Assembly: GCF_014639535.1 (NCBI RefSeq)
Contig: NZ_BMGA01000002.1
Location: forward strand, 1-64,000
Reading direction: 5' to 3'
Source of the DNA: Flavobacterium palustre
GTDB lineage: Bacteria > Bacteroidota > Bacteroidia > Flavobacteriales > Flavobacteriaceae
DNA length: 64,000 bases
The translations under genes and the position numbers were made by a program. The notes under the pieces were generated by a model, which did not search any database, was not told where the DNA came from, and saw nothing but the letters and a program-made list of their open reading frames with translations. Below, piece by piece: positions 47,374 to 56,973 of this stretch; within the stretch, counting starts at the first letter, position 1; each line of letters opens with the position of its first letter.

Positions 47374-47400
47374 TTGTCAATATCATTTTTGATAACTTTG
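47374..47400 (+). promoter_or_regulatory. Predicted promoter of the topoisomerase IV operon
   Basis: TTG (47374-47376) and TAacTTTG (47393-47400) with a 16-base spacer, slightly short. The predicted start is about 55 bases before the parE ATG at 47463. Confidence 0.45.
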
Positions 47401-47462: not shown

Positions 47463-49325
47463 ATGTCAGATCAAAGTAAATACACCGAAGATAATATTCG
47501 GTCGCTGGACTGGAAAGAGCATATTCGTATGCGTCCCGGTATGTACATCGGGAAATTAGGTGATGGTTCTTCACCTGATGACGGTATCTATATTTTATTA
47601 AAAGAAGTACTCGATAACTGTATCGATGAGTTTGTAATGGGCTCAGGGAAAACTATTGAAGTGACTATCAAAGATAAAACCGTAGCAGTACGTGATTACG
47701 GTCGTGGAATTCCTTTAGGGAAAGTGGTTGATGTGGTTTCTAAAATGAATACCGGAGGTAAATACGACTCGCTGGCATTTAAGAAATCAGTTGGTTTGAA
47801 TGGGGTTGGTACCAAGGCAGTGAATGCTTTGTCTAATTATTTCCGTGTAGAATCGGTGAGAGAAGACAAACAAAAAGCAGCTGAATTTTCAGCCGGAAAT
47901 TTGGTTTTGGAAGAAGATATTATTGAAACTACCAAACGTAAAGGAACCAAAGTAACCTTCACTCCTGACGAAGCTATTTTTAAAAACTACAAATTCCGTA
48001 ACGAATATGTAGTGAAAATGCTTAAAAATTATTGTTACTTAAATACAGGTTTGACAATAATTTATAATGGAGAAAAATTCTTTTCAGATTACGGATTAAA
48101 AGATTTATTAAACGAAAATATTGCCGAAGAAGATAAGGTTTACGATATCATTCACTTAAAAGGAGATGATATCGAAATTGCAATGACGCATAGTAAATCC
48201 CAATACAGTGAGGAATACCATTCATTTGTAAACGGACAAAATACGACTCAGGGGGGAACACACTTGGTTGCTTTTCGTGAGGCAATTGTAAAAACGGTCA
48301 GAGAGTTTTACAATAAAGGTTTTGAACCTTCTGATATTCGTAAATCGATTGTTGGAGCGGTGAGTATTAAGGTGATGGAACCTGTTTTTGAATCGCAAAC
48401 CAAAACTAAATTAGGTTCTACCGAAGTAGGTTCTGAACCGGGGATGCCGTCAGTGCGAACTTTTGTCAATGATTTTGTCAAAAATAATTTAGACAATTAT
48501 TTGCATAAAAATCCGGAAACTGCCGATTTATTATTGCGCAAAATTTTACAGGCTGAAAGAGAACGTAAAGAACTTTCAGGTATTCGAAAATTAGCCAAAG
48601 ACAGAGCGAAGAAAGCGAGTTTGCACAATAAAAAGCTGCGTGATTGCCGCGTGCATTTACCCGATATTAAAAATCCACGATATTTAGAAAGTACACTGTT
48701 TATTACCGAGGGAGATTCGGCTTCGGGTTCGATTACTAAGTCGCGCGATGTGAATACACAGGCGGTATTTAGTTTGCGTGGTAAACCGTTGAATTCGTAT
48801 GGTATGAGCAAGAAAATTGTTTATGAAAATGAGGAATTCAACTTGTTGCAGGCAGCTTTGGATATCGAAGACGATATGGAAAACCTGCGTTACAATAACA
48901 TTGTTATCGCTACCGATGCCGATGTCGATGGAATGCACATTCGATTATTGCTGATTACCTTTTTCCTGCAATTTTTTCCGGAATTAATCAAAGAAGGGCA
49001 TTTGTATATTTTGCAAACACCTTTGTTTAGGGTTCGAAATAAAAAAGAAACGATTTATTGCTATTCGGAAGAAGAACGAAAAGCAGCTATCGAGAAATTA
49101 AAACCTAAACCTGAAATCACCCGATTCAAGGGATTGGGAGAGATTTCGCCAAATGAATTTCAGTTTTTTATTGGTGAAGATATTCGATTGGATCCTGTTA
49201 TGATGGACAAACATACTTCGGTAGAGCAATTATTATCTTTTTATATGGGTAAAAATACGCCGGACCGACAAGAGTTTATCATCAAGAACCTGAAGGTGGA
49301 GTTGGATACCATTGAAGAAGCTTAA
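47463..49325 (+). CDS. parE: DNA topoisomerase IV subunit B
   Basis: ATPase subunit of a type IIA topoisomerase that decatenates daughter chromosomes. The 620 residues have the GHKL ATPase ([56 protein letters not shown]), the transducer segment and the TOPRIM metal site ([27 protein letters not shown]). The ATG at 47463 ([10 protein letters not shown]) is chosen over a TTG 13 codons upstream. Pairing with the parC-like gene in the same operon supports topoisomerase IV over gyrase. It is followed after 18 bases by the HEPN gene. Confidence 0.93.
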
Positions 49326-49343
49326 TTTTAAAAATAATTAAGT

Positions 49344-49754
49344 ATGGAGAATCAGGATATTCGTTGGAAACAGAGGTTTGAACATTTTGTAAATGCGTTT
49401 AAGCAATTAAAAAATGCTAAGCAGCTTAAAGAAGAAAGGGATTTTACCGAATTAGAACTTCAAGGAGTAATTCAGGCATTTGAGGTTTCTCAGGAATTGT
49501 CTTGGAAAGTAATGAAAGATTTTCTGGAAGAGCAAGGAAAAACAGACTTGTTTGGTAGTAAAAATGCAGTGAAAGAAGCTTTTAATGTAGGACTTATTTC
49601 TAAAGGAGATATTTGGTTAGACATGATTAAAAGTAGAAATCTAACTTCTTATATTTATGATGAAAAAGAGGTTTTGGCCATTTTAGAAATTATTTTGAAT
49701 GATTATTTTCCTGTTTTCATCGATTTTGAAAATAAAATGAAAAGCCTTTTATAA
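49344..49754 (+). CDS. HEPN-domain protein, HepT/HI0074-like, with altered active-site motif
   Basis: A 136-residue all-helical protein of the nucleotidyltransferase-substrate-binding (HI0074) group of HEPN proteins: TELELQGVIQAFEVSQELSW, EEQGKTDLFGSKNAVKEAFN, DMIKSRNL. In toxin members the RNase motif is R-x4-H-x-Y. Here it reads R98-NLTS-Y103-I-Y105, so the His is replaced by Tyr (codon TAT, one base from CAT), while the Tyr two positions on, which corresponds to the residue AMPylated in HepT, is kept. Its gene overlaps the next one by one base (TAATG). I infer a possibly inactive or altered HEPN partner. It lies inside the parE-parC operon. Confidence 0.85.
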   Translation: MENQDIRWKQRFEHFVNAFKQLKNAKQLKEERDFTELELQGVIQAFEVSQELSWKVMKDFLEEQGKTDLFGSKNAVKEAFNVGLISKGDIWLDMIKSRNLTSYIYDEKEVLAILEIILNDYFPVFIDFENKMKSLL

Positions 49755-50056
49755 TGTTTGGAATTTATCCTAAAAGCTATCAGGAAATTTTGGTAATTTT
49801 TGAAGATTGCCTTTCGATTGATGAGGTAGTAATTTATGGTTCCAGAGCTAAGGGGAATTATAGAGAAGGTTCAGATATTGATATTACTTTAAAAGGAGAT
49901 GTGACAAAAGAAGATTTAAACAAATTATGGCACAAATTAGATGATAGTTTTATCCCTTATAAATTTGACATATCCATTTATAAGGATTTAAAATCTCAAA
50001 GTTTAATAGAGCATATTGAAAGAGTTGGTAAAACTTTTTATAAAAGAAAAAACTGA
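49754..50056 (+). CDS. MNT-type nucleotidyltransferase, MntA/HI0073-like
   Basis: A 100-residue minimal nucleotidyltransferase. The signature GS-x10-D-x-D is intact (GSRAKGNYREGSDID, residues about 29-43), with the third carboxylate in YKFDISIYKDL. In HepT/MntA systems (type VII toxin-antitoxin) this enzyme adds AMP units to a Tyr of HepT and so neutralises it. All catalytic residues look functional here, unlike the partner's RNase motif. It is translationally coupled to the HEPN gene and ends 16 bases before parC. Confidence 0.88.
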   Translation: MFGIYPKSYQEILVIFEDCLSIDEVVIYGSRAKGNYREGSDIDITLKGDVTKEDLNKLWHKLDDSFIPYKFDISIYKDLKSQSLIEHIERVGKTFYKRKN

Positions 50057-50072
50057 AATAAATTCAGCATAA

Positions 50073-52805
50073 ATGAAAGACGAAGAAGACGATAACATCA
50101 TTCCAAACAACGAAGAAAATAATTCAGAAGAGAATCCTATTGATGAAAATCAGGATGGGGAAGAGGCTGATGAAATTATTGACGCAGATGCCAAGCAGTT
50201 TGAAGGTGAGCATTTTTATGATCATAACGAAGAAGATGCCAATGATACCATTACCAAAGTTACCGGTATGTACAAAGACTGGTTTTTGGATTATGCTTCT
50301 TATGTAATTTTAGAGCGTGCCGTTCCTGCCATTGAGGACGGATTTAAGCCCGTTCAACGCCGTATTATGCACTCTTTGAAAGAGTTGGATGATGGTCGTT
50401 ATAATAAAGTCGCCAATGTTGTAGGTCACACTATGCAGTATCACCCGCACGGAGATGCCAGTATTGCTGATGCGATGGTGCAGATAGGTCAAAAAGATTT
50501 ATTGATTGATTGTCAGGGAAACTGGGGGAATATTTTAACCGGAGACGGAGCTGCGGCTTCCCGTTATATTGAAGCACGTTTGTCAAAATTTGCTTTAGAG
50601 GTTTTGTATTCTCCAAAAATCACCGATTGGGGTGTTTCTTATGATGGACGTCGTGCTGAACCCAATAATCTTCCGGTAAAGTTTCCATTGCTTTTAGCAC
50701 AGGGAGCAGAGGGGATTGCGGTAGGTTTATCAACAAAAGTTTTACCGCATAATTTTAATGAATTAATCGATGCTTCTATTAAAATATTAAAAGGAAAGCC
50801 GTTTACGCTGTATCCGGATTTTATGACGGCAGGTATTGCCGATGTGTCTAATTATAATGACGGAATGCGTGGCGGGCGTGTGCGTGTGCGTGCTAAAATT
50901 GCCCAGATTGACAAAAATACTCTGGCAATTACTCAAATTCCGTTTTCGACCAATACTTCGACTTTGATTGACAGTATTTTGAAAGCCAATGATAAAGGCA
51001 AAATCAAAATCAAAAAAATTGAAGACAATACCGCCGCCGATGTTGAAATTTTAATTCATCTTTATCCGGGAGTTTCTCCTGATAAAACGATTGATGCACT
51101 GTTTGCTTTTACAGCTTGTGAAACTTCTGTAGCGCCTTTAGGCTGTGTGATTGAAGACAATAAACCTTTGTTTATTGGGGTTTCGGCAATGTTGAAAATT
51201 TCGACCAACAGAACAGTCGATTTACTTCGTCAGGAATTAGAGATTCATTTAGAGGAATTAAAAAACAAATGGCATTTTTCGACCTTAGAAAAAATCTTCA
51301 TTCGTGAAGAAATGTACATTGATTTCAAATTGTATCATGACAAAGAATCTTTGTTCCAATACATGTACGATCGATTTGAGCCTTTCAAAAAATCCTTTGT
51401 CAGAGAAATCAATGACGATGATTTACAGCGATTGACTCAAATTCCAATGATTCGTATTACCCGTTTTGATTCGGATAAGGCCGATGAATTTATCGCTAAG
51501 TTAGAAGCCGAAATGAAAGAGGTAGAATATAATTTAGAGCATATTGTTGATTTTGCCATTACTTATTTTACCAAGCTAAAAGAGAAATATGGTAAAGGAC
51601 GCGAGCGTCAAACTGAGTTGCGTATTTTTGATGATATTGAAGCAACAAAAGTTGTGTTACGCAATACGAAATTATATGTTGACAGAGCAGAAGGTTTTGT
51701 GGGAACCAGTTTGAAAAAAGACGAATATGTAACGGATTGCTCTGATATTGATGATGTAATTGTTTTTCTTCGTGACGGAAGTATGATGGTGACCAAAGTG
51801 GATGCTAAAACTTTTGTGGGGAAAGACATTATTCATGTAACTGTTTTTGACAAAAGTGATAAACGCACCATTTATAACATGGTATATCGCGACGGAAAAT
51901 CTGGGCCGTCTTATATTAAACGATTTAATGTTTCCGGGGTTACCAGAGATAAATTGTACGATTTGACTAATGGAACTAAAGGCTCGCAAGTCTTGTATTT
52001 TACTTGTAATCCAAATGGAGAAGCTGAGGTAATTACAATTCTTTTGCGTCAAATAAGCAGTATTAAGAAATTAAAATTCGATTTGGATTTTGCTAAATTG
52101 GCGATTAAAGGTCGTGCTTCTAAAGGTAATTTAGTAACTAAATACCCAATTAAGAAAATCGAAATTAAAGAAAAAGGAATTTCTACTTTATTGCCAAGAA
52201 AAATTTGGTACGATGATACTGTACAACGCTTGAATGTTGATGCCAGAGGAGAATTGTTAGGCGAATTCAGACCGAGTGATAAAATTTTGATTATTCAGCA
52301 ATCCGGAAAACTAAAAGTAATCATTCCTGAGTTATCTACTCACTTTGACGAAGATATGATTGTTTTGGAAAAATGGATTCCTAAAAAACCTATTTCGGCC
52401 ATTTATTACGATGGGGAAAAAGAGCGTTACTATCTGAAACGATTTTTAGTAGAGAATGAAGGTAAAGAAGAAAGTTTTATTACGGAACATCCTAATTCGC
52501 AACTGGAATTGGTTTCTACCGATTATCGTCCTGTGGTGGAATTGGTTTTTCCTAAAATTAAAGGAGTTCAAAAAGAATCAATAACCGTTGATGTGGAGAG
52601 TTTTATTGCCGTAAAAGGATTTAAAGCACTAGGAAATCAATTGACTACTGATAAATTAAAACAGGTGAATGCTTTAGAATCGCTCCCTTATGAAGAGCCT
52701 GAAGAAATTATAGCACAATCACTGGAAGTAAGAGGAGAACTGAATGCCGATGACAGTGAAATTCAACTGGAAGACGACGGACAAATAACCTTATCTTTAG
52801 ATTAG
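50073..52805 (+). CDS. parC: DNA topoisomerase IV subunit A
   Basis: DNA-cleaving subunit of the type IIA topoisomerase (910 residues). The winged-helix region includes GFKPVQRRIMHSLKEL, the catalytic Tyr165 sits in AAASRYIEARLSKFA, and QYHPHGDASIADAMVQ is the quinolone-contact region. The C-terminal half (residues ~520-840) is a beta-pinwheel (VIVFLRDGSMMVTKVDAKTF) of the shorter ParC kind. It has an unusual acidic N-terminal extension of about 60 residues (EEDDNIIPNNEENNSEEN) and an acidic tail. It ends in a strong terminator shared with tpiA. Confidence 0.93.
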   Translation: MKDEEDDNIIPNNEENNSEENPIDENQDGEEADEIIDADAKQFEGEHFYDHNEEDANDTITKVTGMYKDWFLDYASYVILERAVPAIEDGFKPVQRRIMHSLKELDDGRYNKVANVVGHTMQYHPHGDASIADAMVQIGQKDLLIDCQGNWGNILTGDGAAASRYIEARLSKFALEVLYSPKITDWGVSYDGRRAEPNNLPVKFPLLLAQGAEGIAVGLSTKVLPHNFNELIDASIKILKGKPFTLYPDFMTAGIADVSNYNDGMRGGRVRVRAKIAQIDKNTLAITQIPFSTNTSTLIDSILKANDKGKIKIKKIEDNTAADVEILIHLYPGVSPDKTIDALFAFTACETSVAPLGCVIEDNKPLFIGVSAMLKISTNRTVDLLRQELEIHLEELKNKWHFSTLEKIFIREEMYIDFKLYHDKESLFQYMYDRFEPFKKSFVREINDDDLQRLTQIPMIRITRFDSDKADEFIAKLEAEMKEVEYNLEHIVDFAITYFTKLKEKYGKGRERQTELRIFDDIEATKVVLRNTKLYVDRAEGFVGTSLKKDEYVTDCSDIDDVIVFLRDGSMMVTKVDAKTFVGKDIIHVTVFDKSDKRTIYNMVYRDGKSGPSYIKRFNVSGVTRDKLYDLTNGTKGSQVLYFTCNPNGEAEVITILLRQISSIKKLKFDLDFAKLAIKGRASKGNLVTKYPIKKIEIKEKGISTLLPRKIWYDDTVQRLNVDARGELLGEFRPSDKILIIQQSGKLKVIIPELSTHFDEDMIVLEKWIPKKPISAIYYDGEKERYYLKRFLVENEGKEESFITEHPNSQLELVSTDYRPVVELVFPKIKGVQKESITVDVESFIAVKGFKALGNQLTTDKLKQVNALESLPYEEPEEIIAQSLEVRGELNADDSEIQLEDDGQITLSLD

Positions 52806-52807
52806 AA

Positions 52808-52846
52808 AAAAAAAGCGAATCAGAAAAATTGATTCGCTTTTTTTGT
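52808..52846. terminator. Terminator between parC and convergent tpiA
   Basis: AAAAAAAGCGAATCA (52808-52822) and TGATTCGCTTTTTTT (52830-52844) are perfect 15-bp arms with a 7-base loop and A/T runs on both sides, suited to both directions. Confidence 0.9.
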
Positions 52847-52851
52847 GTTTT

Positions 52852-53604
52852 TTAGATAGCTGTTACAATCGCAACAAAATCATCTGCTTTTAAAGCAGCT
52901 CCACCAATAAGACCTCCGTCAACGTCTGGTTTTCCAAAAATTTCTTTAGCATTATCCGGTTTTACTGAACCTCCGTAAAGAATAGTTACATTTTCAGCAA
53001 TTTCTTTTCCGTAAGCTTTAAGAACTGTTTCTCTGATGAATTCGTGCATTTCCTGTGCTTGCTCAGGAGAAGCAGTTTCACCGGTTCCAATAGCCCAAAC
53101 TGGTTCGTAAGCTAAAACAACTTTATCCCATGATTTAGCATCAATTTGGAATAATCCGTCTCTTAATTGGTTTTCTACAATGTTGAAATGTTGGTTTGAC
53201 TGACGGTCTTTTAATTCTTCACCAAAGCAAAAAATAACAGTCATATCATGTTTTAAAGCCGTATTTACTTTATCAGCGATTAGAGCATCAGTTTCATGAA
53301 AGATAGCTCTACGCTCAGAGTGTCCAAGGATTACAGTGTTTACACCAACTCCTGTCAACATATCAGCAGAGATTTCTCCTGTAAATGCACCACTTTCGGT
53401 TTGGTGTACGTTTTGTGCAGCAACACTAATGTTAGTTCCTTTTAGTTGGTTTACTGCTGCAGCTAAGTTTACAAATGTAGGTGCAACAATTACTTGTGCT
53501 GTAGTATTTGCAGGTACTTTTGCAATTAATTCACTTAATAATTCGCTGGTTTGTGCTGCGTTTTTGTGCATTTTCCAGTTTCCTGCTACAATCTTTTTTC
53601 TCAT
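52852..53604 (-). CDS. tpiA: Triose-phosphate isomerase
   Basis: Glycolytic isomerase interconverting dihydroxyacetone phosphate and glyceraldehyde 3-phosphate. The 250 residues include the catalytic Lys11 (AGNWKMHKN), His95 (VILGHSERRAIF) and Glu167 (VLAYEPVWAIGTGETA), with phosphate-binding GGSVKPDNAKEI and GGLIGGAAL. Standard length. It lies downstream of the TlpA-like gene on the same strand (about 33 bases from its stop), so read-through is possible. Confidence 0.98.
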   Translation of the reverse strand: MRKKIVAGNWKMHKNAAQTSELLSELIAKVPANTTAQVIVAPTFVNLAAAVNQLKGTNISVAAQNVHQTESGAFTGEISADMLTGVGVNTVILGHSERRAIFHETDALIADKVNTALKHDMTVIFCFGEELKDRQSNQHFNIVENQLRDGLFQIDAKSWDKVVLAYEPVWAIGTGETASPEQAQEMHEFIRETVLKAYGKEIAENVTILYGGSVKPDNAKEIFGKPDVDGGLIGGAALKADDFVAIVTAI

Positions 53605-53637
53605 TTTAGTAGTGTTATATTTGAATTTTATTTTTTG

Positions 53638-54153
53638 TTATTGTTTTTCTAATTGATTTAAAACAGTATTGATTTGTCCAAAATCAGTTTCTACAGCCCG
53701 GTATAAAGCAATTTTTCCTGTTTTGTCGATAATGATATATCTTGGAATCCAGTTTACATCAATCGCTTTAGCAAAAACACCTCCCATTTGGTCATTAGCC
53801 ATATAATGTGATCCTTTTAATTGGTGTTTTTCAATTCCCGCTTTCCATTTATCTGTGGTTTTATCCATCGAGATAAATACATAAGCTGTTTCGGGATGTG
53901 CAGCTTGTAATTCTTTTATTTTAGGCATTGCTTTCACACAATCGCCACACCAGGAAGCCCAGATTTCGATTACTATGTTCTTTCCTTTATTTTTAGATAA
54001 AATAGTTTCAAAAGCCACCTGATTATTACTGATATCTAACAAAGTTTCAGATAAAGCTTCTTTAGAAAATGCCGTTTTTTGAGCATTGGATTTAGTACAG
54101 GAAATAGTAACTAAAAGAAGTAAAAAAGCGATAAATTTTTCTGTTTTTTTCAT
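53638..54153 (-). CDS. TlpA-like thioredoxin-fold lipoprotein
   Basis: A 171-residue exported thiol-disulfide protein. The ATG at 54153 gives a lipoprotein signal (FIAFLLLLVTISCTKS, lipobox Cys about residue 19); the longer frame adds 29 residues ahead of it and lacks a signal. The thioredoxin-like domain has VIEIWASWCGDCVKAMPKIK with the CxxC motif, YVFISMDKTTDKWKAGIEKH and the cis-Pro region NWIPRYIIIDKTG. It probably reduces or isomerises disulfides or supplies cytochrome/oxidative-stress systems at the membrane; the partner is unknown. Its -7-like element TAacTTTG (minus strand, 54159-54166) lies just before the ATG. Confidence 0.85.
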   Translation of the reverse strand: MKKTEKFIAFLLLLVTISCTKSNAQKTAFSKEALSETLLDISNNQVAFETILSKNKGKNIVIEIWASWCGDCVKAMPKIKELQAAHPETAYVFISMDKTTDKWKAGIEKHQLKGSHYMANDQMGGVFAKAIDVNWIPRYIIIDKTGKIALYRAVETDFGQINTVLNQLEKQ

Positions 54154-54369
54154 TGTAACAAAGTTAAAATAAACAATTTGATTGCTGTTTACAGTTGATG
54201 TTTTTTTGGATAAACTGATTAAAATTAACAAATACAGCATTGAGAGTTATAAAAATACAAATGAAAACGTAATAGTAAACCCGATTTGTTTTTGATGTCC
54301 AAAAATAATTTGAAGAAAATCTTTAAATAAGCCTGTTTTAGCTGCTTTTTTAGCCTTTTTTAAACATAA

Positions 54370-54410
54370 AAAAAGCTCATAAATACAATTTTTAGTCTTT
54401 ATGAGCTCTT
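54370..54410 (-). terminator. Terminator of the DoxX-family gene
   Basis: AGCTCATAAA (54374-54383) and TTTATGAGCT (54398-54407) with flanking A and T runs, just beyond the stop of the DoxX-family gene on the minus strand. Confidence 0.7.
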
Positions 54411-54413
54411 TTT

Positions 54414-55517
54414 TTAGAATTTTAAGTCTTGTATATCGTTATAATGAACTTTTTGTTTTACTGTTCCTTTTTCTAAAATTACAATACTTGGATTAGCTCT
54501 TTCTATTGTTTTTAAAGTAGTGGCATCGCAGCTGTAAAAGTCAAAATTCAAATGGTATTTTTTCTGTGCTTTTTCGATTTCTTCAACAGATGAATTGGTC
54601 ATCCCGATTACTTTGTATCCTTTTGAAACAGCGTCTTGATTTAATTTTTGCAATTTTAGCATTCCCTTTTCTTCGGATAAAGCAAGATCATAAGTTACAA
54701 TCATTAGTAATTTAGGTTCTAATAATAATTCGTCTTTATAGTCAGACCCGTCTTTTGTCATCGTAAAATCATGAATAGGAGGAACAAAACCTTCGCTGAT
54801 TACTTTGTCTTTTCGATCAACAAATTCAGCTCCTTCGGGGATATTTGCTAAATCTTTTTCTGAAAATTCTTTTTCTACACCTTTTACTTTGTATATGAAC
54901 TTCATTTCTACAACAGGCATCTGGGCTCCTTCGGGAATTTCCATTCCTTTCTGAATATTGATTCCTACTTTATAAGGACGAAAATCAATTATTGGTAAAT
55001 GATTTAAAACGGTGTATGCCATAATGATACAGCCTGCTAAACCAAGAAAAACAAGGGCATTTTGAAAACTGTTATTGAAAAATAAAGGTTTTACAAGTTT
55101 GCTGTTTGCAAATAAAATAAGGATAAAAAACAATAAAACCACATCTTTCGTAAACGATTCCCAAGGGGTAAGATGCAGGGCATCTCCAAAACAACCACAG
55201 TCTTTTACCACATTATAATAAGCTGAATAAAAAGTTAGGAAAGTAAAAAATACAATCATTAATAATAGGCTCCAAATAGTAAACTTGGTTTTGTAACCAA
55301 TAAGAAGCATAATTCCTAAAAGGACTTCTACAATTACTAAGAATAAAGCCAGATACAAACTAAAAGGAGCTAAAAAAGGCAGGTTGAAAACAGGCTCGCT
55401 AAAATATTCTGCCAGTTTGTATGAAAAGCCTACAGGGTCATTTAGCTTGATTAGACCGGAAATGATAAATAAAATTCCAACAAAAACTCTTGAAAACTGA
55501 GTAATAAAATTTTTCAT
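54414..55517 (-). CDS. DoxX-like membrane protein with C-terminal thioredoxin-like domain, BT_3928 family
   Basis: A 367-residue protein. The N-terminal half has four or five membrane helices of DoxX type (FSRVFVGILFIISGLIKLND, LFLVIVEVLLGIMLLIGY) with a CGCF motif (DCGCFGDALHLTPWE) in a loop. The C-terminal part (LMIVTYDLALSEEKGMLKLQ, YKVIGMTNSSVEEIEKAQ, FDFYSCDATTLKTIERANPS) resembles a thioredoxin-like fold without a CxxC. This is the Bacteroidota BT_3928-type arrangement, often near DUF1599 and folP genes as here. It may link a membrane quinone/thiol reaction to protein oxidation; function is not established. Confidence 0.78.
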   Translation of the reverse strand: MKNFITQFSRVFVGILFIISGLIKLNDPVGFSYKLAEYFSEPVFNLPFLAPFSLYLALFLVIVEVLLGIMLLIGYKTKFTIWSLLLMIVFFTFLTFYSAYYNVVKDCGCFGDALHLTPWESFTKDVVLLFFILILFANSKLVKPLFFNNSFQNALVFLGLAGCIIMAYTVLNHLPIIDFRPYKVGINIQKGMEIPEGAQMPVVEMKFIYKVKGVEKEFSEKDLANIPEGAEFVDRKDKVISEGFVPPIHDFTMTKDGSDYKDELLLEPKLLMIVTYDLALSEEKGMLKLQKLNQDAVSKGYKVIGMTNSSVEEIEKAQKKYHLNFDFYSCDATTLKTIERANPSIVILEKGTVKQKVHYNDIQDLKF

Positions 55518-55525
55518 AATGCTAT

Positions 55526-56074
55526 TTATTTCTTATCGGCAAATCCCATTAAAATTAAGGCAAAAACAGAGTAATTAATCATGTCCTGATAATTGGCATC
55601 AATTCCTTCCGAAACAATGGTTTTACCTTTGTTGTCTTCAATTTGTTTTACGCGAAGTAGTTTTTGCAAAATCAAATCTGTCAAAGAACTCACCCGCATA
55701 TCACGCCAGGCTTCTCCATAATCATGGTTTTTGGCTTCCATTAAGTCTTTAGTCAACTGCACTTTGGCATCATATAATTTGGTTGCTTTTTCCACATTCA
55801 AATCAGGTTGATCGACAACGCCTAATTCCAGCTGAATTAAAGCCATTATTGAATAATTAATGATTCCGATGAACTCTCCTGATTCGTCTTCATCTATTTT
55901 TCGAACTTCGTTTTCCTGTAAACTGCGAATTCTTTGTGCTTTAATGAAAATTTGATCGGTTAAAGAGGGTAATCGTAAAATGCGCCAGGCACTACCGTAA
56001 TCCTGCATTTTATTTGTGAATAAAGAACGGCAAATTGCAATTACCTTATCGTATTCCTGAGAAGTATTCTTCAT
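55526..56074 (-). CDS. DUF1599 domain protein
   Basis: A 182-residue helical protein built from two similar halves: KMQDYGSAWRILRLPSLTDQ with RIRSLQ, and NHDYGEAWRDMRVSSLTDL with RVKQIED. This duplicated DYGxAWR...SLTD pattern is DUF1599, related to the all-alpha NTP-pyrophosphatase style. The ATG at 56074 replaces a TTG eleven codons upstream. It is 8 bases upstream of the DoxX-family gene and divergent from folP; this neighbourhood is conserved in the phylum. Catalysis is not shown. Confidence 0.82.
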   Translation of the reverse strand: MKNTSQEYDKVIAICRSLFTNKMQDYGSAWRILRLPSLTDQIFIKAQRIRSLQENEVRKIDEDESGEFIGIINYSIMALIQLELGVVDQPDLNVEKATKLYDAKVQLTKDLMEAKNHDYGEAWRDMRVSSLTDLILQKLLRVKQIEDNKGKTIVSEGIDANYQDMINYSVFALILMGFADKK

Positions 56075-56148
56075 TATTGATGTATATTTGTCTAAAAATT
56101 TTCTCAAAAATAGGGAAAAGGTTTCAACTTTAAAACAAAGATTAAAAA

Positions 56149-56973
56149 ATGACTATTAACTGTAAAGGACAGCTGATTGATTTGTCACAACCCAAAGTAA
56201 TGGGGATTTTAAATATAACACCTAATTCCTTTTTTGATGGCGGAAGGTATTCGGGTGATGCAGCAATTTTAACTAAAGTCGGAAAAATGCTGGATGAAGG
56301 AGCTACTTTTATAGATGTTGGCGCTTATTCGAGTAAACCCGGTGCCGAATTTGTATCAGCAGAAGAAGAACTCAATCGTATTGTTCCTGTTATACAATTA
56401 TTAGTGAAACATTTTCCCGGAATTATAATTTCAATTGATACTTTCAGGAGTGAAGTTGCAAGGGCCTGTATCGAAAACGGAGCGGCTATTATCAATGATA
56501 TTTCGGCAGGAAATCTCGATGTTAAAATGCTGGATGTTATAGCTAAATATAATGTTCCTTACATTATGATGCACATGAAAGGTACGCCGGAAACCATGCA
56601 ATCGATGACAGAATATGAAGATATTGTGAAAGAAGTTTTGTTGTTTTTTTCAGAAAAAGTAAGCCAGGCCAGAAGTTTAGGAATTAATGATTTGATAATT
56701 GATCCGGGTTTTGGATTTGCTAAAACTATTGAGCAAAATTTTGAGGTAATGCAAAAACTGGAATTGTTTCATAATTTAGAATTGCCACTTTTAGTTGGGA
56801 TTTCCAGAAAATCGATGATTCATAAATCGCTTGCTATTAGCGCTGATGACGCATTAAACGGAACTACTTTTTTAAATACAATTGCTTTGACAAAAGAGGC
56901 TCATATTTTGAGAGTACATGATGTTAAAGAAGCTGTAGAATGTGTAAAATTATACGAGAAATTGAATTCTTAA
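56149..56973 (+). CDS. folP: Dihydropteroate synthase
   Basis: Folate-synthesis enzyme condensing p-aminobenzoate with hydroxymethyl-dihydropterin pyrophosphate, the sulfonamide target. The 274 residues show MGILNITPNSFFDGGRYSGD, VGAYSSKPGAEFVSAEEEL, ISIDTFRSEVARACIENGAA, INDISAGN, MMHMKGTPETMQ, DPGFGFAKTIEQNF and GISRKSMIHKSL. All usual catalytic loops are present, so the enzyme should be active. It is 4 bases upstream of a small lipoprotein gene. Confidence 0.97.
   Translation: MTINCKGQLIDLSQPKVMGILNITPNSFFDGGRYSGDAAILTKVGKMLDEGATFIDVGAYSSKPGAEFVSAEEELNRIVPVIQLLVKHFPGIIISIDTFRSEVARACIENGAAIINDISAGNLDVKMLDVIAKYNVPYIMMHMKGTPETMQSMTEYEDIVKEVLLFFSEKVSQARSLGINDLIIDPGFGFAKTIEQNFEVMQKLELFHNLELPLLVGISRKSMIHKSLAISADDALNGTTFLNTIALTKEAHILRVHDVKEAVECVKLYEKLNS

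Follow-up and report, generated by a model that had tools for sequence, protein, structure and literature searches.

The window analysed here is a stretch of 64,000 nucleotides from Flavobacterium palustre (assembly GCF_014639535.1, contig NZ_BMGA01000002.1, positions 1 to 64,000), in which a pair of HEPN and MNT genes lies between parE and parC, the genes for the two subunits of topoisomerase IV. The parE-parC operon is essential, and the pair inside it resembles a toxin-antitoxin module. The original prediction, made from the sequence alone, placed the pair on the strand of the operon, 18 bases after parE and 16 bases before parC, with a 1-base overlap between its two genes, and all of this was confirmed; it offered a housekeeping modification system or a recent neutral insertion as explanations. 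Our analysis points to a different answer, which we hold to be probably correct: the parE-parC junction is a swappable cargo slot in the topoisomerase IV operon, and the HEPN-MNT pair of the window is one of its recurring cargoes, predicted to work like the pair of Legionella.

We compared the junction in 150 Flavobacterium genomes sampled out of a larger group. parC was matched in 150 and parE in 149, and in 140 genomes both genes lay on one contig and strand, which made the interval usable; the other ten include G131, where the slot could be followed only from parE (L247), and G031, in which parE lies near a contig end (L249). After correction for the start of the parC match, the interval was at least 300 bp in 60 of the 140 genomes (hereafter loaded intervals) and reached 4.3 kb. 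Before correction, 79 intervals were shorter than 300 bp, 55 of these being shorter than 100 bp. Eighty intervals were fetched and read alongside that of the window, and some of the counts use 61 intervals, namely the 60 loaded ones and that of G122, which had been wrongly scored as loaded. The parC gene of G122 (L103), a draft genome, gives two separate matches (residues 19-186 and residue 255 onward) and is thus internally altered or misassembled; its start lies directly behind parE.

The content of these intervals was almost entirely operon-directed, with 80 open reading frames (ORFs) of at least 100 amino acids on the plus strand and one on the minus strand of the 61 intervals. Plus-strand ORFs of at least 55 amino acids formed 20 cargo clusters by BLAST, and family names were taken from 20 representatives searched against Pfam, ten of which were also run through PADLOC. 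Pfam identified YhcG, PDDEXK_3, GmrSD_N with AAA_15, DUF4435, Fic and RhuM among the representatives, and six of the 20 had no Pfam match. YhcG/DUF1016 nuclease genes were the cargo in 24 genomes (20 at full length, the rest split or fragments), HEPN-MNT in 7 of the 60 loaded intervals, PDDEXK_3 in six genomes, a triplet of AAA_15, a gene of unknown kind and GmrSD_N in three, and Fic in three, one of them with RhuM-Fic. PADLOC assigned YhcG to PDC-S02, the triplet to PDC-M55A/B/C, Fic to PDC-S04 and RhuM-Fic to PDC-S23. The adjacent AAA_15 and DUF4435 genes of G066, which also carries a YhcG fragment, matched AriA (8.4e-28, best over residues 279-424 of 443) and AriB (2e-42), an assignment to PARIS that concerns the genes only. 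Among the cargo matched by PADLOC, only AriAB (PARIS) is known as an established system. In G110 (L049), a 1167-amino-acid SNF2 helicase with a SWIM zinc finger, for which PADLOC gave general helicase matches only, is followed by a 62-amino-acid MNT remnant directly before parC, and in G131 HEPN-MNT and then YhcG stand behind parE before the contig ends. Altogether, 44 of the 60 loaded intervals held all or part of a gene resembling those of nucleases, defence systems or toxins. The Pfam scans of the 20 representatives, which cover part of the cargo ORFs, turned up no integrase or transposase family. In addition, a family of membrane-like proteins of 59-72 amino acids (by eye; no Pfam match for the representative) was seen in 13 slots (e.g., L108:396-611), 11 of which have it immediately behind parE, and the window genome has two YhcG nuclease domains outside the slot (C1:651590-652042 and C8:166579-167028).

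The palindromic leader CTGAAATAAATTCAGCAT before parC was identical in nine genomes among the loci searched, whose cargoes were HEPN-MNT, lipoprotein-like genes, YhcG and the GmrSD triplet, or whose intervals were nearly empty. We rejected the palindrome as a dispersed mobile signal, since only two exact 15-mers were found in its own genome.

Long intervals were concentrated in the genus. In a family survey, 136 genomes of other genera gave a parE-parC interval, and this, once corrected likewise, was at least 700 bp in 6 of them versus 44 of the 140 Flavobacterium genomes (Fisher p 1.7e-9). Thirty of the 136 raw intervals measured 487-555 bp. A conserved gene of about 160 amino acids, mostly starting MRTNN, was present between parE and parC in 9 of 28 other-genus loci read over all interval sizes (e.g., L212, L214, L219 and L225); its product resembles a membrane protein passed down together with the operon, and BLAST found no homologue of it among the genus cargo. 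One of the 12 longer other-genus intervals read held a YhcG gene. The intervals L237 and L242, from two other genera, contain a YhcG-like gene (G225) and, by eye, a gene resembling a phage ORF6N regulator (G279), so that genera beyond Flavobacterium may occasionally use the slot too.

Within the genus, gene pairs shared by the 80 genomes downstream of parC served as control junctions; eleven co-directional junctions of this kind had gaps of at least 300 bp in 12 of 165 cases. The window's own downstream genes were dropped as controls, because tpiA lies 3' of parC only in the window genome among the 80 (stretches mostly of about 7 kb). In a parE-parC phylogeny covering 80 of the 140 genomes (58 with cargo and 22 with short intervals; the shortened parC of G072 filled 41% of the columns), the cargo label required at least 44 changes, YhcG 17 and HEPN-MNT alone 6. 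These counts are consistent with cargo that is gained, lost and replaced.

Such replacement would probably proceed via homologous recombination of donor with recipient DNA in the conserved parE and parC flanks, and the relatives of the window show a phylogenetic conflict of the corresponding kind. In the flanks, F. pokkalii grouped with the window genome (G000) and F. glycines, inside G051, whereas in the pair it stood apart from them. The pair data rejected the flank grouping of G000, F. glycines and F. pokkalii as a clade (p of the approximately unbiased test, p-AU, 0.0005), and positions 1-1300 of parE rejected the pair grouping of G000, F. glycines and G051 (p-AU 0.003). Furthermore, identity between G000 and G051 rose toward the slot on the left, from 84.2% in the 5' part of parE to 92.4% in its 3' part and 92.9% and 92.7% in the pair, and on the right went from 91.2% in the 5' part of parC to 86.8% in its 3' part. 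The rise in parE was the largest among 863 pairs of genomes.

A HEPN match was found in 14 of the 150 genus genomes, and in 8 of the 150 it lies at the parE-parC spot (G000, G051, G028, G131, G092, G055, G132 and G089; that of G131 adjoins parE at the contig end). We also scanned 84,980 species, each represented by a single genome, and took the best 80 loci. In the best 10 of these, parE and/or parC adjoin the pair; they comprise seven Flavobacterium (including F. glycines, F. pokkalii and F. kayseriense), one Flavobacteriaceae and two uncultured Bacteroidetes, and one of them (L256) is the contig of G131. No parE or parC was present in the DNA stretches compared for the other 70. Fifteen slot copies, that of the window among them, formed one clade in a 92-row HEPN tree (Shimodaira-Hasegawa-like approximate likelihood ratio support, SH-aLRT, 97), so that 15 of 15 rows of the window clade lie in the slot, versus 75 of the 77 other rows elsewhere, within the DNA compared. 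The HEPN genes of G132 and G089 grouped with copies located elsewhere in the genus (support 97), and a second arrival of HEPN in the slot is likely from this tree; a single clade for all slot HEPN genes was not rejected (p-AU 0.39, 136 columns). The window pair is under strong purifying selection: relative to G051, the non-synonymous and synonymous divergences were 0.009/0.476 for HEPN and 0.019/0.412 for MNT, and synonymous divergence from the window was high and non-synonymous divergence low in most slot-clade members compared.

The label of a HepT/MntA-type pair given in the original prediction held for the HEPN-MNT kind and had to be amended in detail. The window HEPN matched PF08780 (NTase_sub_bind; E 2.7e-37, 128 bits, cut-off 31.8) and TIGR01987 (HI0074; 94.1 bits, cut-off 55.8), and the MNT matched PF18765 and PF01909. 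Adjacent PF08780 and PF01909 genes are the neighbourhood described for class I HEPN/MNT (type VII) modules in the cited part of PMC7641770, and the pairing is beyond chance, because relatives of both genes also adjoin each other. The GSX10DXD motif of the MNT is intact, with G29, S30, D41 and D43 invariant in all 13 aligned rows. The RX4HXY motif given for the class in the same source is broken in the window HEPN, which reads R98-N-L-T-S-Y103-I-Y105, and the MNT scored 28.3 bits against the MntA antitoxin equivalog NF047752, under its 60-bit cut-off. The pair is a member of the HI0074/HI0073-type HEPN-MNT family, and on these two grounds we file it as derived from that kind; it belongs to the branch defined by PF08780, and its closest match is the Legionella pair, whose chains 8xdj and 8xeh matched at 5.2e-34 and 1.8e-19 over nearly full length. 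PADLOC matches of the pair were weak (MNT to PDC-S09, 7.4e-7; HEPN to an unrelated model, 0.019), and a defence role of the pair would therefore rest on the company it keeps in the slot and not on a family match.

The residues that matter in the Legionella HEPN are kept in the window. According to the cited part of PMC11586414, that protein has a Mg-dependent RNase site at Q44/E47 and carries AMP on Y105; Q44, E47, R98 and Y105 are conserved in 13 of 13 aligned genus rows, and among the best 80 loci Q44 occurs in 76, E47 in 79 and Y105 in 80. Position 103 differs: it is tyrosine in the window and G028, and histidine in the other 11 of the 13 genus rows and in 80 of the best 80 loci. The change (CAT to TAT) is the sole amino-acid difference between the window and F. 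glycines HEPN proteins. Changes at this position occurred in 2 of 15 slot-clade copies versus 0 of 77 others (Fisher p 0.025, from a small sample and post hoc).

Expression of the pair with its operon also appears likely. For the pattern scan we used the flavobacterial-type promoter consensus, which we take to be TTG-N16-23-TAnnTTTG; it was found ahead of parE in the window, as it was in six of nine related loci scanned (L253, L256, L257, L258, L259 and L261) and was not found there in L255, L260 and L262. Within the window's own parE-parC interval the scans returned no match to this pattern and no terminator-like site on the plus strand. The original prediction had seen neither a promoter nor a terminator inside the operon; this stood for terminators and for the flavobacterial pattern, whereas sigma70-like sites do occur on the plus strand of the interval, two of which (49726-49755 and 49965-49994) match at 11 of 12 positions. 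Over the whole scanned region, 25 such sites compared with a shuffled mean of 19.8 (standard deviation 4.0), which is about the chance level. Since the interval lacks an internal terminator and a flavobacterial-type promoter and the sigma70-like sites of the scanned region are near the shuffled level, a single transcript from parE to parC that includes HEPN-MNT is likely, and the earlier idea that expression of the pair is tied to that of the operon is favoured.

Taken together, these observations suggest the following mechanism. Small modules, mostly nuclease-, defence- or toxin-antitoxin-like, would enter the slot in the direction of the operon and so be readable from the parE promoter. By homology to the Legionella pair, the window HEPN would be a Mg-dependent RNase acting through Q44/E47, which the MNT would keep off by poly-AMPylating Y105; a stress or an infecting phage that unbalances HEPN and MNT would release the HEPN. 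The replacement of H103 by tyrosine appears recent in the window genome and may weaken or retune the toxin.

Several results weigh against this reading or narrow it. In 16 of the 60 loaded intervals no gene resembles those of nucleases, defence systems or toxins, the cargo being lipoprotein-like (eight, by eye), DUF3298-type (three) or mixed genes (five); PDDEXK_3, present in six genomes, was not matched by PADLOC, and the PDC families count as candidates and not as proven defence systems. Some control junctions vary as well, and they were picked as usually tight, which favours the contrast; in the 80-genome tree, 22 of the 77 inner forks were weak, so that the change counts may be too high. 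With whole flanks, the test against the pair grouping was borderline (p-AU 0.051), and positions 790-2733 of parC gave no rejection (p-AU 0.275). Across the genus, the rise in identity beside the slot was not significant for pairs with like cargo (108 vs 713 pairs, without G072; parE p 0.06, parC p 0.79), and because of this the case for recombination depends on a small number of close pairs and the tree conflict; from these alignments, cargo swapping by homologous recombination is supported in the window's own group and only plausible in the rest of the genus. In the cargo, the flavobacterial promoter pattern occurred 30 times on the plus strand, in 19 of the 61 intervals (shuffled mean 8.1), and nine times on the minus strand. 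As the pattern exceeds the shuffled level there, other cargo may have promoters of its own; many of the matches lie at like positions within YhcG genes, and among the HEPN-MNT intervals only that of G132 has one. Finally, the window pair may not be a working toxin system, because H103 is absent and the counterpart of this residue is essential in Shewanella in the portion of PMC4621449 cited here. A stronger form of the proposal, in which the junction is an immune slot, recombination in parE and parC swaps its defence and toxin-antitoxin modules like alleles and these modules are expressed with the operon, is for us a tentative and rather doubtful extension.

That last doubt leads to an alternative in which H103Y killed the toxin and the pair is a decaying relic on its way out, comparable to the MNT remnant that adjoins parC in G110. 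The invariance of H103 across the best 80 loci speaks for such a loss, as does the Shewanella HepT mutant H102A, in which toxicity was abolished (PMC4621449, in part). In the available portion of the Legionella study (PMC11586414), however, H103A had a negligible effect, as had R98A, and the catalytic Q44/E47 of that protein is kept in the window; moreover, the window HEPN is one amino acid from that of F. glycines and the MNT is intact, so that any decay would be very young. We regard a relic as unlikely. An ordinary mobile HEPN-MNT pair that landed by chance between parE and parC, recent and neutral, has a precedent in the lysine operon of Thermus thermophilus, where a pair is present in strain HB8 but not in HB27 according to the part of the 2009 survey (PMC2701414) cited here. 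The original prediction had proposed comparing the interval across relatives, and the close relatives G005 and G025 do lack the pair; many genomes, however, have other cargo at the same place, as in G005 itself, where a lipoprotein-like gene lies behind a stretch resembling a YhcG remnant by eye. The recurrence of the pair at the spot, the restriction of its 15-member clade to that spot, a dN/dS ratio (non-synonymous to synonymous divergence) far below 1 and the loading of the same junction in 60 of 140 genomes largely refute a neutral insertion, which we consider highly improbable.

Another possibility is that the location itself was selected because the pair is a partner of topoisomerase IV that senses or modifies ParE or ParC, or answers topoisomerase supply or DNA damage. 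The slot-bound clade, the strong purifying selection and the lack of a flavobacterial-type promoter pattern in the window interval would all fit such a role. Its presence there in just 8 of 150 genus genomes does not, and this count likewise tells against a housekeeping modification system. Most other loaded genomes carry unrelated cargo, so that the position looks more like a property of the slot than of the pair, and no Pfam domain is common to the pair and ParE or ParC. A topoisomerase partner is thus very unlikely in our judgement, and we retain the cargo slot as the explanation of the locus. Its features in the window are collected in Table 1. The genes tpiA, tlpA, doxX, DUF1599 and folP follow parC at 52852-56973 in the window genome only, among the 80 and within the fetched stretches; G051 has other genes downstream of parC.

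Table 1. Positions (in the 64,000-nucleotide window), strands and supporting evidence for the features of the parE-parC locus.
Feature	Position	Strand	Evidence
Putative promoter of the parE-led transcription unit, TTG-N16-TAACTTTG	47374..47400	+	Pattern scan
parE, topoisomerase IV subunit B, left border of the slot	47463..49325	+	Pfam DNA_gyraseB, Toprim, HATPase_c
parE-parC cargo slot, from after the last sense codon of parE, 750 bases	49323..50072	+	Comparison of 140 genus intervals
HEPN (HI0074 family, PF08780), predicted RNase toxin	49344..49754	+	Pfam, NCBIfam, alignments
MNT nucleotidyltransferase, predicted AMPylating antitoxin, GSX10DXD intact	49754..50056	+	Pfam, alignments
Palindromic parC leader CTGAAATAAATTCAGCAT	50053..50070	+	Common to genomes with unlike cargo
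parC, topoisomerase IV subunit A, right border of the slot	50073..52805	+	NCBIfam PRK12758, 1463.8 bits
Terminator-like hairpin (long) 3' of parC	52808..52844	+	Terminator scan

Hotspots of defence genes between core genes are already known; the present case is a two-gene essential operon split by small, colinear and mostly defence-like cargo in 60 of 140 sampled genomes. We found no earlier description of a parE-parC cargo slot in the open-access literature, a scope outside which most subscription papers fall. The slot is a short place, of a size suited to the polymerase chain reaction, in which to seek new anti-phage genes, given the representatives without a Pfam match. Its slot-bound HEPN clade is a natural test case for the persistence of a toxin-antitoxin pair that does not spread to further sites, and the HEPN proteins of the window and F. 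glycines are natural alleles for testing the one histidine whose role differs between the Legionella and Shewanella studies. If the junction were an immune slot, changes in topoisomerase IV expression or supercoiling, as upon phage takeover or with a topoisomerase poison, would change the supply of antitoxin too, and loss of cargo would be buffered, since parE-parC DNA of any relative could restock the slot.

Among known systems, the defence hotspots of Pseudomonas aeruginosa and Escherichia coli are reportedly larger islands between core genes, whereas the slot described here takes one to three genes within an essential operon. The Flavobacterium slot shares with them a fixed place that holds changing defence systems. 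This likeness is to the core hotspots and defence islands as described in the cited parts of PMC10250203 and PMC10121019. The slot also resembles the hotspots without mobile elements, fed by homologous recombination, in the portion of Oliveira 2017 (PMC5635113) considered here, which likewise have many gene contents between the same conserved core genes (60 of 140 intervals and 20 clusters in our case) and no recombinase family (among our 20 scanned representatives). Those hotspots have more homologous recombination in the flanking core genes; in our case signs of flank recombination are local, seen for G000, G051, F. glycines and F. pokkalii and not significant genus-wide. Unlike those hotspots, it splits a two-gene essential operon, measures 0.3-4.3 kb and takes cargo almost only in the direction of the operon. 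As for the pair itself, it resembles the type VII HEPN-MNT of Legionella pneumophila (PMC11586414, in part; PDB 8xdj, 8xeh, 8xem and 8xeo) in its PF08780-type HEPN, with residues 1-135 in the same numbering and Q44, E47, R98 and Y105 conserved, and in a short MNT aligned over nearly its whole length; it differs in having Y103 for histidine, in lying inside parE-parC and in being known from its sequence alone. With HepT-MntA of Shewanella oneidensis (SO_3166/SO_3165), as described in the cited parts of PMC4621449 and PMC7641770, it shares a HEPN RNase, predicted in the window, adjoining a GSX10DXD MNT and a tyrosine two residues past the position of the motif histidine. The Shewanella pair has its own promoter, its antitoxin gene comes first and its H102 is essential, whereas in the window the HEPN gene comes first, the interval has no flavobacterial-type promoter pattern and the counterpart of that histidine is replaced.

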